Assembly (NCBI RefSeq): GCF_900083545.1 | Contig: NZ_LT559262.1 | Span: 2,964,324 to 3,028,323, forward strand | Length of the DNA: 64,000 nucleotides | Direction: 5' to 3' | DNA from: Alistipes provencensis | GTDB lineage: Bacteria; Bacteroidota; Bacteroidia; Bacteroidales; Rikenellaceae | Notes under the pieces: model-generated | Seen by the model: only the letters and a program-made list of their open reading frames with translations | Told to the model about the DNA's origin: nothing | Database searches by the model: none | Made by a program: the position numbers and the translations under genes | Part shown: positions 771-11,900 of the stretch, piece by piece | Numbering within the stretch: position 1 is the stretch's first letter | Layout of the letters: each line of letters opens with the position of its first letter

Positions 771-1985
771 TTATGCCGTCAGCACCTCCCCGATCTTTCG
801 CATCTCCCGACTGATGTTCGCTTCCGAGATTTTCGCATACCTTCGCGTCATGTTCGTATTCGTATGGCCCAGAATCTTGGCGATGATGTCGATCGGCATG
901 CCGTATTCAATCGCCAGCGTAGCGAACGTATGACGGGCGCAGTGTGTCGTCAAATTTTTCGGGATATTGCATATCCCGGCCAGTTCCTTCAAGTAGGCAT
1001 TCATCTTTGAGTTGGAGGGAACGGGCAATAGTTTGCCCCGGGATTTGCAGGTTTCGTCGGACTCGTATTTTTGCAGAATCCGGACGGCCTGCGGCAGCAA
1101 CGGCACCCTACTCATCACCGACGTTTTTTCTCGGGGCTTGTGAATCCATTGCATTCCCTGCTCGTCCGTGGTGATATGCTCCCGCTGCAAGTGGTCCGCA
1201 TCCGTAAAGGCCAGGCCTGTCAGGGCGCAGAAACAGAATACGTCCCGGATGCGGTCCAATCTGTCGTTGGGCATCGGATTTTTCAATAAGGTATCCAGTT
1301 CCTCTTTCGTCAGCGGAACCTTGACGTTCGTCCGGTCCACCTTCATCTTATAGTACCGGAACGGATTCTTTTCGATCCATTCGTTTCTTATCGCATAAAG
1401 GATAAAGTTTTTCAGACAGCACAACAGGTTGACCGCACCGTTGTTCTTGCAGTTGTGTGCTGTTTGCATAAAGGTATTCAGACCGTCGATATATTCGTAG
1501 CCGATCATATCCAGCGGCAGGTCGTCTTTGCGGTACTGTTGTTTGGTATATTCGGTCAGGTAGCGCAGCAGCCGGTGGTACTTGTTTGCCGTAAGCTGGG
1601 TGATGCGGGTCCCGACCTCCTTCTGCCGTTTGTCGCAGTACTTTGAAAATTCGGACAGGAACATCCGCGAACCGGAGGAGCTGATTAGCCGTTGTTTGAT
1701 CGAAAAGCAGTCCGGAGTTTTATTCTCTTTGAGGAGTTGGTCATAGGCCGCGAGAATATTGGCCCGGTAGCTGGCGATAATGCTGTTGATTCGCTGGTCT
1801 ATCTCGTCTTTGTAAAGCGAGCGTTCGAGACGCTGGTTCCAGCGTTCCGGTTCGATCTGGCACTGGGTGTGGACTTCGGTCGCACGGCCGGAGGTCGTGA
1901 TGCGGGCGTAAATGGGCGCTTTGCCCTTTTTCGTTACTTTGGTCTTCTTGCAGAAGAAAATCACGTTGAATGTCGTTCTGTGCAT
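771..1985 (-). CDS. Tyrosine recombinase (integrase) of element A
   Basis: 404 residues, site-specific tyrosine recombinase of the Bacteroidetes mobile-element type: N-terminal arm-binding domain (about 1-95), SAM-like core-binding domain (about 105-200) and C-terminal catalytic domain (about 215-400). Visible catalytic motifs are HCARHTFAT (His-x-x-Arg), LGHTN and the nucleophile Tyr in TRRYAKI. The place of the first catalytic Arg reads TGLAFTD, so Arg I is Ala, as in the CTnDOT integrase class, which lacks it. The gene ends in TAA, has its own terminator, and lies 250 bases from a broken tRNA-Gly copy with the same geometry as the second integrase and the intact tRNA-Gly. It probably integrates element A at tRNA-Gly(GCC). 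Confidence 0.93.
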   Translation of the reverse strand: MHRTTFNVIFFCKKTKVTKKGKAPIYARITTSGRATEVHTQCQIEPERWNQRLERSLYKDEIDQRINSIIASYRANILAAYDQLLKENKTPDCFSIKQRLISSSGSRMFLSEFSKYCDKRQKEVGTRITQLTANKYHRLLRYLTEYTKQQYRKDDLPLDMIGYEYIDGLNTFMQTAHNCKNNGAVNLLCCLKNFILYAIRNEWIEKNPFRYYKMKVDRTNVKVPLTKEELDTLLKNPMPNDRLDRIRDVFCFCALTGLAFTDADHLQREHITTDEQGMQWIHKPREKTSVMSRVPLLPQAVRILQKYESDETCKSRGKLLPVPSNSKMNAYLKELAGICNIPKNLTTHCARHTFATLAIEYGMPIDIIAKILGHTNTNMTRRYAKISEANISREMRKIGEVLTA

Positions 1986-2163
1986 GGCTGCATGGGTTTG
2001 GAATGGTTAAACGTATGCAGCATAGAAATATTGCAGCGTAAAACAATGCAAAACAGCGCATTATGCGTAATTCGTGACCTGTTTTTGTCCGGGTGAAAAC
2101 AGGTCACGAATTGGGTCGTACAAACCTGCTTTCAAATGCATCTTTTCGCAGGGCCTAAAAACG

Positions 2164-2198
2164 AAAAAACCTTACATATCATTGATACATAAGGTTTT
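2164..2198 (-). terminator. Terminator downstream of tRNA-Gly remnant
   Basis: AAAACCTTA and TAAGGTTTT arms form a hairpin followed on the minus strand by two T runs. It has the same position relative to the broken tRNA-Gly copy as the terminator behind the intact gene at 11780-11821. Confidence 0.75.
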
Positions 2199-2231: not shown

Positions 2232-2286
2232 AGAGCGGAAAACGGGACTCGGACCCGCGACCTCAACCTTGGCAAGGTTGCGCTCT
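2232..2286. repeat. Left attachment-site repeat of element B
   Basis: 55-bp direct repeat, identical to 11826-11880. It is the 3' part of tRNA-Gly(GCC), the standard target of tyrosine recombinases. Together with the integrase next to the other copy it delimits element B. Confidence 0.85.
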
Positions 2287-3304: not shown

Positions 3305-3733
3305 TCAGATGCGCTTATAAGTACGAACCTCTTTCCCGTTGTAACCGTCTTCCTCGTCGATGTCGATAATGTTAAGCGTTGTGGAGTTCATCATTTCGAT
3401 AACTGACTGCTCGGTATAACCGTCGTCTTTATCGTCGTGATAAATTTTCGTAAGTTTATCCCCACTTATTGAGTATGTCCCTTTTGACGTATGCCCTGAA
3501 TTCGGGTATTCCTCCGTCCAAGTTCCATTACTATTAAATGTCAGATAGTGCATCGGTTCGTCGTCTTTGGGAATATCTTTATCTACGACAATCACACCAT
3601 TATCGTAGCCTGTAAGATGCGTGTATTCCCACTTACCAACGATTGAATTTTCTTCATTTTTGTCATCATCAGAACAAGCGAAAAATGAAGTCGTTATAAA
3701 GATAGCAGTTACAAATAAGAGAATCTTTTTCAT
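3305..3733 (-). CDS. Lipocalin-like lipoprotein 1
   Basis: 142 residues. It has a signal peptide with a lipobox ending in FFAC, then an Asp-rich SDDDKNEE linker typical of Bacteroidetes exported lipoproteins. The rest has the lipocalin-like pattern: IVGKWEYT near the start, NSNGTWTEE in the middle and a beta-rich C-terminus. It probably sits in the outer membrane as a small beta-barrel ligand-binding or accessory lipoprotein; ligand unknown. It is the third of three similar genes on the minus strand (4653 to 3305), separated by 36 bases from the second. It terminates with TGA. The paralogues share little beyond fold-level motifs. Confidence 0.8.
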   Translation of the reverse strand: MKKILLFVTAIFITTSFFACSDDDKNEENSIVGKWEYTHLTGYDNGVIVVDKDIPKDDEPMHYLTFNSNGTWTEEYPNSGHTSKGTYSISGDKLTKIYHDDKDDGYTEQSVIEMMNSTTLNIIDIDEEDGYNGKEVRTYKRI

Positions 3734-3769
3734 GGTAGTTTGAATTTATATATGGTGCTATTATCCTTT

Positions 3770-4234
3770 TTATCTATTTATTTTTTTGTAGGTATAGGTA
3801 TCTTCTTCTGTAAATTCGGGGTCGATTCTGCGTTCAAATAATATGAGTTGAGAAGATGTGAGTTTTTTGATTTGAAATTCCTGCATTTCTTCATAATCTC
3901 CATCCTTTTCTACGATTGTCAGTACATTATTAGACATCGTATATGTTCCGTTTTTTGAATTATTGACGCTTTGATTCGTATAGCTTACCCTTTTCATTTT
4001 TCCATGCCCGTCAAAGGTATAAGTCCAATAATAATCGTCATCATCTATTGCAGGATATGAATCAGACCATTCATCTCGTATCCCATCGTTATTGACACTC
4101 CACCCCTCAATGAGGGTGATTTGCCACGTTCCCGCAATTTGATTAGGGTCAATCTTGTTGTCATCATCATCGGAGCAGGCCGAGAACGTAACAGCCGCAA
4201 ACATAACGGCGGCAAGTAAAAGCATCTTTTTCAT
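3770..4234 (-). CDS. Lipocalin-like lipoprotein 2
   Basis: 154 residues with lipobox FSAC followed by SDDDD. The mature part opens with IAGTWQITLIEGW and has the FDGHGKMK turn, again the lipocalin-like layout of small Bacteroidetes lipoproteins. Its start ATG overlaps the stop TGA of the upstream gene (ATGA, 4231-4234), so the two are translationally coupled. Function unknown; presumably envelope-located cargo of element B. Confidence 0.8.
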   Translation of the reverse strand: MKKMLLLAAVMFAAVTFSACSDDDDNKIDPNQIAGTWQITLIEGWSVNNDGIRDEWSDSYPAIDDDDYYWTYTFDGHGKMKRVSYTNQSVNNSKNGTYTMSNNVLTIVEKDGDYEEMQEFQIKKLTSSQLILFERRIDPEFTEEDTYTYKKINR

Positions 4235-4653
4235 CGTTTGCTGAATATTTTAAGTTCGTATTCTTCCCAACCATCACCCTTTTCGTGGTACTCCAATTTA
4301 AGGGTCGATGCCGTCAGTTCCTTAATTGTAAAGGTTTGCGGGTCGCCGTATTGGCTATATCGCACCGTCAGTTTATTATTGGACGACACCGAATAGTCGA
4401 TGCTTTCCGATGAATCCATTTCCTTGTAAGACCCAGTATTATCGGAATTGAACACGAAATAGATTTGCGCATCGTTCATGTCCTCGTTCCACTCGTCTTT
4501 TACACCCTCGTCGATTTCATAACCGACGGAATGTGTGTAACGCCACGTTCCGACAAGTTCATCCAAATTGATTTGCACTTTATCGTCGTCATCGGAACAG
4601 GCGACAAAGGCAGTTGTGGCGAATAGAGCCACCAATAGAAACAACTTTTTCAT
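4231..4653 (-). CDS. Lipocalin-like lipoprotein 3 (first gene of operon)
   Basis: 140 residues with lipobox FVAC followed by SDDDDK. It carries the lipocalin-like signature LVGTWRYTHSVGYE, close in wording to the first paralogue (IVGKWEYTHLTGYD), and FNSDNTGSYKE. It is first in a three-gene operon preceded by an unusually long structured leader (4654-4912) and a -7 box at 4919-4926. It ends with TGA inside the ATGA overlap, which shows that UGA works as a stop in this element. Ligand and role unknown. Confidence 0.8.
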   Translation of the reverse strand: MKKLFLLVALFATTAFVACSDDDDKVQINLDELVGTWRYTHSVGYEIDEGVKDEWNEDMNDAQIYFVFNSDNTGSYKEMDSSESIDYSVSSNNKLTVRYSQYGDPQTFTIKELTASTLKLEYHEKGDGWEEYELKIFSKR

Positions 4654-5005: not shown

Positions 5006-5302
5006 TTAATCTTCTCCGCAAATTTCTTGTATCACGCCATCCATGTAAATCGCCTGCCCGCTTGTCAGCCGTCCCCACCAGCGACACCCTAATTCGTCGA
5101 TGATGATTTCGCCCTGTTCTTTCAGCCGTTCGGCCAGCCACGGAGTAACGAGCCACCATTCCAGCACCTCGTCTCCGTTAAAGGGATAGATGTATTCCTC
5201 GTCGATTTTTCCCGCTTGGATTAACCCCTCGATAACTGTGCTTTGTCCCCATAGGACATGGATGTCCGTAATTCGTTTGGCTCTCTCTTGTGTTTCGTAC
5301 AT
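5006..5302 (-). CDS. Unknown acidic 98-residue protein
   Basis: 98 residues, acidic, with six Trp residues all encoded by TGG, including LEWWLVTPWLAE and CRWWGRL. No signal peptide or membrane segment. I do not recognise the family; the wording resembles small proteins of Bacteroidetes mobile elements. It ends in TAA and is flanked by 350 and 248 bases of non-coding DNA. Its TGG codons contrast with the TGA-bearing genes of the same element. Confidence 0.6.
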   Translation of the reverse strand: MYETQERAKRITDIHVLWGQSTVIEGLIQAGKIDEEYIYPFNGDEVLEWWLVTPWLAERLKEQGEIIIDELGCRWWGRLTSGQAIYMDGVIQEICGED

Positions 5303-6473: not shown

Positions 6474-8261
6474 CTATATTGCAATCTTTTTCCTCGCAAC
6501 GAATTTATCCCGAACGATGGTGTAGCACTCGGTGTTCTTGCCGTCGATGTTCTTGTAGCCTTTCGCCGTATCGAATCATTGGGCAATATCCGTCGCTTTT
6601 GCTCTGCGCTCAACCCCCAAATCGTCGTATATGGTCTGTAACCTCTCTTTAATGATTTTAGAGGGGATCGCCTTTCCGTGGGGGAAATCGGTATTTATCC
6701 GTTTGACGATTTTATATGCGAGTTCGCCCGCCGAACATTTAATCAGTTCGCGCCGTATCTGCGTCTGATTGTATTTGAGTTCCCGCACCCGTTTTGTCCC
6801 CAATATCTCAAAGGCCTGTTTTACCAGCGGGTTCCGCCGCTCGATAAGCGATAATGCGAACACGTCCGTCGAAAAAGGATTCGTGTCGGACGCCTTGAGT
6901 TCGGCGTATCGGTCGAACAACTCCTTAAACGGTATCTTGGCTTTGGCGTTCTTTTCCAACTTGGTCAGTCGGATGTCATGCCGTTCGGCAGTTGTTATCT
7001 TGTTGTCGTTACGCTCGTATTCCGTAATAAGGTTACGGCTGTCGGCGTAAATCTCGGCATAGTTGCGGAAATTCAGCAGTTCCAATTTGATTCGGTTGCG
7101 GTCTATGGTCATTGTATCGGTATTGATGTATTTGTTGTTGGTATAAATTTGGTTGCGCAAATCTTCATCTGCCGTCGCATATCATTTCACGAAGCGTTCG
7201 GCCTTGTCCAATTCTTTTTCCGTTGCGGCTTTGAATTGCGGATAAGTGATGCCCTCGGCGTATCGTACCGTCGAGAAGATGTGCGTTATCTCCTTGTAAC
7301 GTGTATCGCGTATGCGCCCTGCAATCTGCCGTATCGTCGTCGAAACGTCCAGCAGGTGGTGTCGTGCCGTACCGTCGCTTACGACGTATATTTTGCCCTG
7401 CTTGTCGTAAATGTCGCACCCCTCGAAAGCCGTCGAGGTGTAGAAATTGATTTTGCGAACCTCTTTATCTGGAATCCCTATCGAATAATCTCCGCCTAAT
7501 TTCTCGCGGTTTATCTGCTCGGATGTCCCGCTCGTCGAACAGACGATTTTCACCTTGTCGGGTGACAGTCGGGCATGATGCAGCACCCGTCCGATAAAAT
7601 CGACGCTGTTTACAAAGAAATGCAGGTTGCAGGGAATATTGTGCGTTACGGCATTGTGGCAAAGATTTACGACCGATGCTAACGGACTGTTTTCATGCCA
7701 CAACCGCACCTGTATCGGCGGTTCGCTGGGTCAGACTATCCGCGTTGTCGGCAAGGGCTGCAATTCATTCAACAGAAATTCCCGCTCGATGGGTGTCGCG
7801 GACATATAAGTCGCACGGTTGAATTTGGGCATTTCGGCAAGTAATCCCGTAACGGCTCGGTGTCGGAATGAATAGTCGAACAGCAGGCGGTGATATTCGT
7901 CTACCAACAACAGGGCTTTGGCGTATATCTCCGCTCCTGCAACCTCTGCGACGCGCGGAATCGCGTCATAGGTGGCCATGATTTTTCAGCGGTCGTGCGT
8001 TTTCAGATAGTCGGCTATCTCTTGGTTGGTGACACCGCTGTAAACCCCCAGCAGGTCGGCGTGTTCGGGCAGTTTGTTCTTGATAAGGTTTACCGTCGGA
8101 ACGGCAATTAAGGTTGGCACTCGGTTCTCGATGGCAAGTGTCGTTGCGCCGCATCCCGTCTTGCCCTTGTTAAAGATGCAGTTTGCGGGCAATTCGTTAT
8201 TGAGTTCGGCGATTTGCTGGACGTGGAGTGCGTCCGAGGGTGCTGTAATGATTGAGTTCAT
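6474..8261 (-). CDS. SF2 helicase-like protein with four in-frame TGA codons
   Basis: ATG 8259-8261 to TAG 6474-6476, 595 codons in one frame, interrupted only by TGA at 7986-7988, 7731-7733, 7182-7184 and 6576-6578. Helicase motifs lie on both sides of the TGAs: Walker A FNKGKTGCGATTLA (about residues 29-42), DEYH box (LLLVDEYHRLL, about 118), motif III YMSATP (about 149), and a C-terminal helicase region with TTIRQIAGRIRDT (motif VI-like, about 330). The N-terminus MNSIITAPSD and TGCGATT loop resemble a family common on Bacteroidales mobile elements. Contexts are THDR-x-KIMATYD, TRIV-x-PSEPP, RFVK-x-YATAD and DIAQ-x-FDTAK; Trp fits well. Only one TGG occurs (7698-7700). It is either a recoded gene or an inactivated one. 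A role in element replication is inferred from the family. Confidence 0.75.
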
Positions 8262-8823
8262 AAGTAAAGAGTAAGGAAAAAATTACGTCGCAGATTTTTT
8301 GTGCGGGTAACATCTTTATTAGTAAATCTAATTTCCGACACGCTTTTTATGCGGCCGCATTTTTTCGGTGTAGGAATCTGTCTTTATAGGGAATTTGAAT
8401 TTCCGACACAAAAAATATGCGAGCAGGGCACAAAAGCAAGGGACACCGAAAATGCCCCTTACATGACCTTACCCTTACTTGTCGGATGTTCCTCTCTCGT
8501 ATTATAAAGATAGCACCTTTTTTATTGGTAACAAAGGTCGGACAGCAATTAATCCGAACATTTTTATCCTTGCCTTATATGGCATTATAGGAGTGTTGTA
8601 CGGGTGTCGGAGTGCGTTCGACCTGCCGAAAACCTGCGAAAAGTCGCTATTAGCGAAAATCCGCACGCTTCATTGTTCTAAAACGCCTCCCGATGCGTGT
8701 GCAAAAGTCTTATCAAGGGGCTTTTCGCCGCCTTATTGTTCTGTTATTCTCCCGAAACGTGTGTTTCAAGTACTATCAGCAACTTTTACTTGGCGGCGAG
8801 GTGTTATTTACAACCGAAAATGT
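8262..8823. other. 560-bp intergenic with repeated GTCGGA-type motifs
   Basis: This region lies between the divergently oriented helicase and the frameshifted gene. AATTTCCGACAC occurs twice as a direct repeat (8330-8341, 8398-8409). The core TCCGAC/GTCGGA recurs near 8481, 8538 and 8606 in the other orientation. Another repeat is ATGCGGCCGCAT (8349-8360), a perfect palindrome. A plus-strand open frame (8479-8826) has no recognisable content and I do not call it a gene. The region could be an origin or operator; that is inference. Confidence 0.45.
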
Positions 8824-8851: not shown

Positions 8852-9648
8852 ATGAGCACGAAGATAGAATGCGAGGACGGCTCGGTCTATTTCGAACCCG
8901 AACCGAACGAAACCGAGAATCTGGAGTATGTCTATTTGCTCTGCGACGATTATGAGAACGGCAGCCATTATCCGTACCGTTTCTTCGACCGCATGTGCAA
9001 CGGGTTAATCGAAGCCCCTTTCAGCAAGTCGCAGTTTATGGACAACGACGAAATCGTGTCCACTTTGGAGGGGTACGAATTGGATGCGGAGAAATTTTGG
9101 ATGGCGGTACTCTTTATTTATGATTGGGCCGAGAATCAGTTTGTCAAATGCGTCGATATAAAATCCCGTTCGCACGGGATGCTGTTGCGGGAGCTGCTCG
9201 GCAAGTTGGGCGACAATATGGGCGACGTGACGATTCAGATTCGCAAAGGGCGCAAGAACTTGGACGTACACCCGATGATTAAGCGGGATATGATTGACGC
9301 CCTGCACGCCAAATTGGAGGAGTTGAAGCGGAAAGGGGCGGACAACCTCTTTACTGTTCGGAGGACTTCAAGGCAGATTACCCTGTACTGTCCTATAAGA
9401 TGTATTTCGCTACGGAGCGGTTGCGGGAGTTGTTCGCGGCATTGGAACGATGCAGGAGGATAGGGAAACCCAAACGGCGCAAAGGGTCGCTCGTGTCCTA
9501 TAACAAAATGTTGCTGTTCGCCCGTATCGTCTATATGTACCGTTACACGGACAATCCCGCATTTTTGGACAGCGACGACCCGCTGAAAGGAATCCTAAAA
9601 TCTTATAAGGGCAAAATTCCAAAAACATATTCCGCAATTTACTTGTAG
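8852..9648 (+). pseudogene. Unknown gene with one frameshift
   Basis: The frame from ATG 8852 gives an acidic protein (about 165 residues) ending in KRKGADNL. Near 9347-9352 the coding signal moves to the next frame, which continues as YCSEDFKADYPVLSYK and MYFATERLRELF to TAG 9646-9648. Restoring one missing base near 9348 gives about 265 residues. No signal peptide or membrane helix; the C-terminal part is basic. Family unknown. Trp codons are TGG. The frameshift may be a real mutation, a sequencing error or, less likely, programmed. A strong terminator follows directly. Confidence 0.65.
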
Positions 9649-10442: not shown

Positions 10443-11648
10443 TTATAAAAGATTCTGCATCGCCGCGTCGATTTGGCTGTTCTCAAACGAATCGAGGTAG
10501 ATTTGGGTAGTCGATAAATCGGAATGCCCGAGCGATTCGGAAATGATGGCAATGTTTACTCCCGACCGTTTCAAGACCGTTGCAAACGTATGCCGCGCAA
10601 CATAGGTAGTCAGTTCGATTTTCAGCCCCAATAATCGGCTCCACTCGTGCAGGGCCTTGTTCACATGTTTCAGCACCTTGCGCACTCGGTCGTAAATCTG
10701 CTGCTCGGTCTTGTGTATACGGAGGTCGAGTATCGGAAAAATATAATCCTCGTCCGCATGGTCGGATTTGGCGTATTTGCCGATAATCGCTTTCGACTGC
10801 TCCGAGAGGTGGCAGGTCATCTCCTTGCTGGTTTTGTGGCGGGCATAGTAGATTCTTTCCTCTTCCATATCGCAGTAACGCAGGGTGGCGATGTCCTTGA
10901 AATTGATGCCTGCCGAGAGGTAGGAAAACAGGAAAATGTCCCGTGCGAAATCCAGATAGGCCGAACCGTCGGCGGGTATCTCCGCCTGCATCAGTCGTTG
11001 CACCTCCTCCTTGCGGATGGCGCGTTTACGGGTGGCTGTCCACAATCGTCCGATTTTGAATTGCAGAAACGGACTGTGCGGCGTGGTGAAAATCCCCTCG
11101 GCAAGAGCCTTGTTATAGACGGCTTTCAGAACGCTGAATTTCGTGGCTATCGAATTGCTCTTGTTCCCCTTTTTCATTAGGAACAGTTCGAAATCACGCA
11201 GGTAGCCGACCGTAATTTCGTCGAAACGGATATTGGTCGAACGGAATTGTTGCAGGAGTGAGAACGTGACCTTGTGTTTCGATGCCGAGCCGATTTTACC
11301 CACCGATTCCAACTGTGCAATCGTGCGGCGGAAATATTCGGCTATCGTGCAATAAACCCTCCGTCCGTCGGTTTCCAGCACATTGTCCAGCGTTACGGGG
11401 ACCTCCAACGCTTCGAGCCGTTTGACGCGCTTGTCGTATTTCTCGATTTGCTCGTAAATCCGTAGCTGAACGGCGGGATTCTGCGTTTTAAGTGTTTGGG
11501 TGTCGAAATCCCAATCGTCGGCGGGGATATTGATTCCTGTGCTTACATAGCGGCTGCGGCGATTGACGGTAAAACGCAGGTAGATGTTCGTGGTGCGGTT
11601 TTGATTGATGCGGTCTTTTCTGCAAATGGCATTGATGCTGACACTCAT
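10443..11648 (-). CDS. Tyrosine recombinase (integrase) of element B
   Basis: 401 residues: arm-binding domain (about 1-95), SAM-like core-binding domain (about 105-205), catalytic domain (about 215-400). Catalytic motifs visible are YVARHTFAT (His-x-x-Arg region, with the usual His replaced by Tyr-Val at the first place), LGHSD and the nucleophile Tyr in TTQIYLDSF. The Arg I region reads SAGINFKD, so the first catalytic Arg is missing, as in CTnDOT-type integrases. It is adjacent to intact tRNA-Gly with about 180 bases between, the usual placement beside the target tRNA. It is expected to integrate and, with an excision factor I do not see, excise element B. Confidence 0.92.
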   Translation of the reverse strand: MSVSINAICRKDRINQNRTTNIYLRFTVNRRSRYVSTGINIPADDWDFDTQTLKTQNPAVQLRIYEQIEKYDKRVKRLEALEVPVTLDNVLETDGRRVYCTIAEYFRRTIAQLESVGKIGSASKHKVTFSLLQQFRSTNIRFDEITVGYLRDFELFLMKKGNKSNSIATKFSVLKAVYNKALAEGIFTTPHSPFLQFKIGRLWTATRKRAIRKEEVQRLMQAEIPADGSAYLDFARDIFLFSYLSAGINFKDIATLRYCDMEEERIYYARHKTSKEMTCHLSEQSKAIIGKYAKSDHADEDYIFPILDLRIHKTEQQIYDRVRKVLKHVNKALHEWSRLLGLKIELTTYVARHTFATVLKRSGVNIAIISESLGHSDLSTTQIYLDSFENSQIDAAMQNLL

Positions 11649-11825: not shown

Positions 11826-11880
11826 AGAGCGGAAAACGGGACTCGGACCCGCGACCTCAACCTTGGCAAGGTTGCGCTCT
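11826..11880. repeat. Right attachment-site repeat of element B
   Basis: 55-bp direct repeat identical to 2232-2286. It spans the 3' portion of the intact tRNA-Gly up to the D arm. Confidence 0.85.
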
Positions 11881-11900
11881 ACCAACTGAGCTATTTCCGC
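11829..11900 (-). tRNA. tRNA-Gly(GCC)
   Basis: 72 nt. Acceptor GCGGAAA/TTTCCGC, D arm GCTC/GAGC, anticodon stem CAACC/GGTTG with loop TTGCCAA (anticodon GCC), T arm GCGGG/CCCGT. CCA is not encoded. Complete and apparently functional, it is reconstituted after element integration, since its 3' part doubles as an att site. Confidence 0.96.

Follow-up and report, generated by a model that had tools for sequence, protein, structure and literature searches.

A helicase gene with conserved in-frame UGA codons in a tRNA-integrating element of Alistipes provencensis, and its possible decoding by helper phages

The locus studied here raises the question of whether a helicase gene crossed by four in-frame TGA codons can be functional beside genes that use UGA as stop, and, if so, what reads it. 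The gene lies in a 64,000-nucleotide stretch of the A. provencensis genome (the window), and the features discussed below are listed in Table 1.

The reading frame, its predicted fold and its relatives

The helicase frame ran on the minus strand from ATG at 8259-8261 to TAG at 6474-6476 and was interrupted by TGA alone; no TAA, TAG or frameshift occurred in it. The initial annotation had described a frame of 595 codons with four TGA codons and a single TGG, and re-reading the sequence bore out both the coordinates and the count. The helicase motifs it had named were also recovered, as Walker A, DExH, motif III and motif VI-like stretches together with a two-domain fold. The AlphaFold2 model had a mean pLDDT of 84, and structure comparison gave the fold of an SF2 helicase with a Z of about 18 over residues 3-426. 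The best solved match in Foldseek was the origin-binding protein of HSV-1 (herpesvirus), and many of the viral matches were replication origin-binding proteins; the VIA match covered mainly residues 3-465, with other SF2 helicases ranked first. By sequence, no family in Pfam, PHROGs or NCBIfam scored above the cut-off for the element helicases (a Pfam match to DEAD, with an E of 0.0016, was below the cut-off), and a PDB sequence search returned chance-level matches only. The window helicase shares the SF2 core of UL9-like origin-binding and other SF2 helicases, with a sequence similarity that can barely be detected, and the likeness is one of predicted fold. The SF2 fold and the matches to origin-binding proteins make replication the likeliest role, and from the modelled fold and the gene's context the helicase is likely a replication factor of the element that carries it.

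A second copy of the helicase (L002) was found in the A. provencensis genome; it was 65% identical to the window copy and also held four TGA codons. Two of these shared columns with TGAs of the window gene, the remaining window TGAs were TGG in L002, and the other TGAs of L002 stood opposite non-Trp residues or in the equivalent N-terminal column. Distant homologues free of TGA were present in the same genome. When 268 genomes of the host family were searched, all close full-length relatives, at 39-65% identity, had in-frame TGA, and each TAA or TAG within the matches was the gene's own terminator. Genome and virus scans placed TGA-bearing members in Alistipes, Cryptobacteroides and rumen lineages; the helicases of Maribellus and Paludibacter had a single in-frame TGA, and those of Dysgonomonas, Seramator, Parabacteroides and Tannerella had none. 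In a tree of 40 helicase genes, 31 were TGA-bearing and the presence of TGA switched at least four times; the TGA-bearing genes were concentrated in certain host lineages, and some family copies were frameshifted. A metagenomic strain (L111), 94.8% identical to the window gene over 1350 nt, matched it in the codon positions of the first three TGAs and had neither TAA nor TAG, with a dN of about 0.016 and a dS of about 0.20 between the two. As judged from these sequences, UGA coding extends beyond one gene to an entire family carried on integrative elements across Bacteroidales.

Tryptophan at the UGA codons

In an alignment of 13 members, W177 and W562 were the two invariant Trp columns (TGA in 13/13 and 12/13 members, respectively), and no TAA or TAG occurred in frame. 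Across the TGA-holding columns, the other residues were Trp at a mean frequency of 0.42, compared with 0.0035 in random columns (1000 draws, maximum Trp frequency 0.024), although some start-proximal TGAs fell in non-Trp columns. Trp had been considered plausible at each of the four window codons when the gene was first annotated, and all four columns held TGG in at least one relative. Two of the checks proposed at that time, a homologue alignment and dN/dS between relatives, came out in favour of the reading: the relatives had Trp at the TGA columns, and dN/dS was low. TAA or TAG in close relatives, named then as an argument against it, was not found in frame in any of them. In five relatives (L005, L006, L007, L008 and L010), a TGA was observed 3-5 codons past the presumed start, where relatives have residues other than Trp; it is possibly an early lock, or the start is wrong.

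For the helicase family as a whole, dN/dS was 0.05-0.15; the long segments between and after the TGAs gave about 0.03-0.2, the short last segment gave less than 0.3 where an estimate could be made, and dS was near saturation. An alternative raised in the initial annotation was a dead gene accumulating biased TGG-to-TGA mutations, and the frameshifts in some family members fit a decaying pseudogene. Against this, dN/dS downstream of the TGAs was still about 0.1 although dS approached saturation, and relatives at 39-65% identity kept TGA in the same Trp positions and had no TAA or TAG, which rules out decay for the family and leaves it an extremely improbable account of the window gene. The ends of the genes were consistent with UGA as a sense codon: TGA-bearing helicases with a readable end terminated at the homologous C-terminus, and only in TAA or TAG, and the TGA-free relatives L077 and L078 terminated in TGA. 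From the Trp columns, dN/dS and the terminators, the UGA codons of the helicase are predicted to be tryptophan codons.

TGA made up 47 of the 60 TGR codons, whereas about half of the Lys, Glu and Gln codons ended in A. Similarly, one third base was shared by at least 12 of the 13 members in both invariant Trp columns but in only 4 of the 25 conserved Lys, Glu and Gln columns. In a sample that is small and related by descent, this hints that UGA itself may be kept at the invariant Trp columns rather than just tolerated.

The integrative element and decoding in its host

The helicase gene was found inside an integrative element of about 9.6 kb whose tyrosine integrase adjoins a tRNA-Gly. The element layout was tRNA, integrase, c4 and c6 on the opposite strand, helicase, c2 and variable cargo, and most loci with complete flanks had exact tRNA-derived repeats of 45-76 bp lying about 8-15 kb apart. 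The c6 gene looks frameshifted in the window, since it is one ORF in other elements.

Table 1. Coordinates of the helicase gene, its in-frame TGA codons and the surrounding element in the window
Feature	Position	Strand	Remarks
UGA-coded SF2-type helicase gene (predicted)	6474..8261	-	595 codons; TGA at codons 92, 177, 360, 562; terminator TAG
In-frame TGA, codon 92	7986..7988	-	TGG in second copy L002
In-frame TGA, codon 177	7731..7733	-	Trp invariant; 13/13 close members have TGA, TGA-free relatives TGG
In-frame TGA, codon 360	7182..7184	-	TGG in second copy L002
In-frame TGA, codon 562	6576..6578	-	Invariant Trp column; TGA in 12/13 close members
Tyrosine integrase of the element	10443..11648	-	Standard code, no in-frame TGA
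tRNA-Gly(GCC), integration target	11827..11900	-	att repeat copy at 11826-11880
Second copy of the 55-bp att repeat (3' part of tRNA-Gly), opposite element end	2232..2286	-	9594 bp away
Conserved element gene c6, N-terminal piece	8852..9463	+	Standard code
c6, second piece, different frame	9400..9648	+	
Element gene without assigned function, 183 aa	9852..10403	+	Standard code
Small conserved gene c2, downstream of helicase	5006..5302	-	98 aa, standard code; in 20-21 loci
Cargo: three tandem lipocalin-like lipoprotein genes	3305..4653	-	2 of 3 terminate in TGA

The element genes c2, c4, c6 and c9 together contained 185 TGG and no TGA codons, and 10 of 34 integrases ended in TGA, indicating that the helicase is the one UGA-coded gene of these elements. 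Ten integrase matches did contain TGA; their alignments had started before the integrase's own start codon, or the match was one partial copy. One further in-frame TGA was scored in cluster c20 of locus L086. Outside the element, a second integrase with its flank (window 771-2192) was nearly the same as L068 1-603, at two tRNA-Gly loci of this genome. In the second UGA-helicase element, L067 4135-6089 held an AAA-type ATPase gene with a further gene behind it, a defence-like pair by eye.

The host had RF2, and its set of 47 tRNAs was standard, including one Trp(CCA) and no UGA-reading tRNA with anticodon UCA. In the host part of the window, 7 of 34 large, crudely called ORFs terminated in TGA. 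Host-wide reassignment of UGA was rejected on these grounds (RF2 present, no UCA tRNA, 7/34 host ORFs ending in TGA). The tRNA with anticodon UCA suggested by the initial annotation was thus found in neither the host nor the element, so its UGA codons would have to be read with outside help or in some other way.

A suppressor tRNA of the elements' own, too divergent for detection, would also account for the gene. Suppressors beyond detection have been noted in the literature (PMC7886860, PMC12386605), and in the recoded phage L113 a poorly folding tRNA not listed by ARAGORN lies at 8341-8411 (with a matching part in L114), 125 bp past the helicase gene; in our reading its loop may be read as UCA. 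However, Infernal at E up to 5 found only the tRNA-Gly and the att remnant in the window element, no full tRNA beyond target or remnant tRNAs stood out at the gathering score in eight further loci, and the other element genes showed no adaptation to sense UGA, which makes an undetected suppressor very unlikely. Of the first interpretation, the part that stands is UGA as Trp in a selected gene beside genes with UGA as stop, a reading supported by the Trp columns, dN/dS and the restriction to one gene; the part that does not is a simple, self-contained recoding, as no tRNA(UCA) was found in the element and in-frame TGA occurred in the helicase only.

In its small size, its integrase and its att repeats at a tRNA, the element resembles a phage satellite. 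The known induction of phage satellites such as P4 and the PICIs runs through protein or transcription signals, not through the genetic code. Like them, the window element is about 10 kb long, has its tyrosine integrase beside a tRNA and carries variable cargo and a gene that is likely for replication; it differs in that the trigger proposed below is the genetic code, and the likeness is drawn from the genes alone. No terminase, portal or other late or virion gene was recognised with Pfam on ten window proteins and PHROGs on part of them, a screen limited by the several element genes that matched nothing in either.

UGA-recoded phages and a putative code gate

In these bacteria, UGA suppression is known to come from recoded phages. 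Viral helicase relatives were found mostly in genomes whose coding density rose when TGA was taken as sense. Phage L125 had a tRNA(UCA) and TGA in its large genes. In phages L119 and L123, TGA was largely confined to one gene block, with the helicase near the block. L113/L114 and a Gaoshiqia prophage (L108), all UGA-recoded phages, had TGA in terminase, portal and helicase and none in the serine integrase; in L108, from Gaoshiqia sediminis, the terminase had 8 TGA and 0 TGG, and the serine integrase 0 TGA and 4 TGG. A viral contig, L112, carried a tRNA with anticodon CUA at 1904-1975 near a helicase relative, and its density rose with TAG as sense.

Suppressor tRNAs for UGA and UAG, mostly in the service of late genes, have been described in crAss-like phages, and UGA-reading ones in phages of Bacteroidetes (PMC7886860, PMC12386605). 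Code 4 phages of Bacteroidota, crAss-like ones included, resemble the window element in that UGA stands for Trp where relatives carry TGG and that a subset of genes is recoded, and the helicase family is found in such phages. The window element differs from them in that one gene only is recoded, in an element of the 8-15 kb type with no suppressor tRNA detected. Alternatively coded prophages in standard-code hosts are noted in PMC10746230, which cites its reference 23 for them. Such prophages resemble the window element in having an integrase without TGA and lytic or replication genes with TGA (L108, L114); they possess whole recoded late modules, whereas in the window element no late gene was recognised.

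A prophage of Proteiniphilum acetatigenes DSM 18083 (L107/L117) was recoded in most of its genes and had a TGA-free helicase. Most of its late genes held 1-2 in-frame TGAs in a standard-code host, and a UCA tRNA was absent from the phage and from the 48 host tRNAs, suggesting that UGA may be read by another route. The host itself might read UGA as Trp conditionally, under stress or infection, through lowered RF2 or an altered tRNA-Trp and with no phage suppressor; besides this prophage, the clustering of TGA-bearing copies in particular host lineages is consistent with such reading. It would, however, have to be very efficient to pass 3-5 serial UGAs. RF2 is present, in the other element genes TGA is avoided within the frame and serves as terminator, and distant homologues in the same genome are TGA-free. 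We consider conditional reading by the host unlikely.

The reading that we prefer is that the window gene is a functional SF2-type helicase of a tRNA-integrating element, with UGA as Trp, and that it is code-gated with a helper phage as the likeliest decoder; we hold this combined reading to be somewhat better than an even bet. The integration genes and the cargo, being in standard code, would be expressible at any time. The UGA-coded helicase would be silent in the resting host, which cannot read UGA, and the element would integrate and persist silently until UGA suppression arrived from outside and the helicase was made. The likeliest source of suppression would be a UGA-recoded phage bringing a UGA-reading tRNA, with which the element would then replicate and spread as a code-gated satellite. 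The helper phage is a candidate explanation, the most likely one for the decoder; from the evidence above we infer the replication role, the phage-supplied suppressor and the satellite life cycle. Because the rest of the element is readable by the host and the helicase alone is UGA-coded, such a gate is the simplest account, and the split in L108 and L114, with integration in standard code and lytic genes using UGA, shows that temperate phages already make use of this logic. The search brought up no helper phage of this host: among terminase relatives in 21 Rikenellaceae genomes none had in-frame TGA, so no recoded helper prophage was found there, and no CRISPR link to a helper was obtained, the A. 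provencensis genome having no Cas1.

The same gate could instead serve defence, the helicase being switched on by UGA-suppressing phages and harming or aborting them. The sequence evidence is the same for both uses, the gate would sense recoded phages directly, and some elements have defence-like cargo by eye. Nevertheless, the helicase belongs to the core, next to the integrase, and not to the variable cargo, and it is also carried by phages, which fits replication better; a defence effector therefore seems quite unlikely.

No account of code-gated elements turned up in literature searches. The novelty lies in a putative one-gene code gate carried by an element in which no suppressor was detected. 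UGA recoding has been known from phages; in this case it shows up as a conserved lock on a single gene of a small element in a standard-code host, and what decodes it apparently lies elsewhere. Whether a class of chromosomal mobile elements uses the genetic code as a sensor, with a key gene that holds conserved UGA-Trp codons, is translated only in the presence of a UGA-suppressing phage and leads to helper-dependent replication or to phage-triggered defence with no protein sensor involved, we regard as evenly balanced. A code gate would account for the annotation of such genes as broken, or for their being missed. If the reading is true, satellites and defence genes of recoded gut phages would be findable through conserved in-frame stops, and the genetic code would be a signal between mobile elements.
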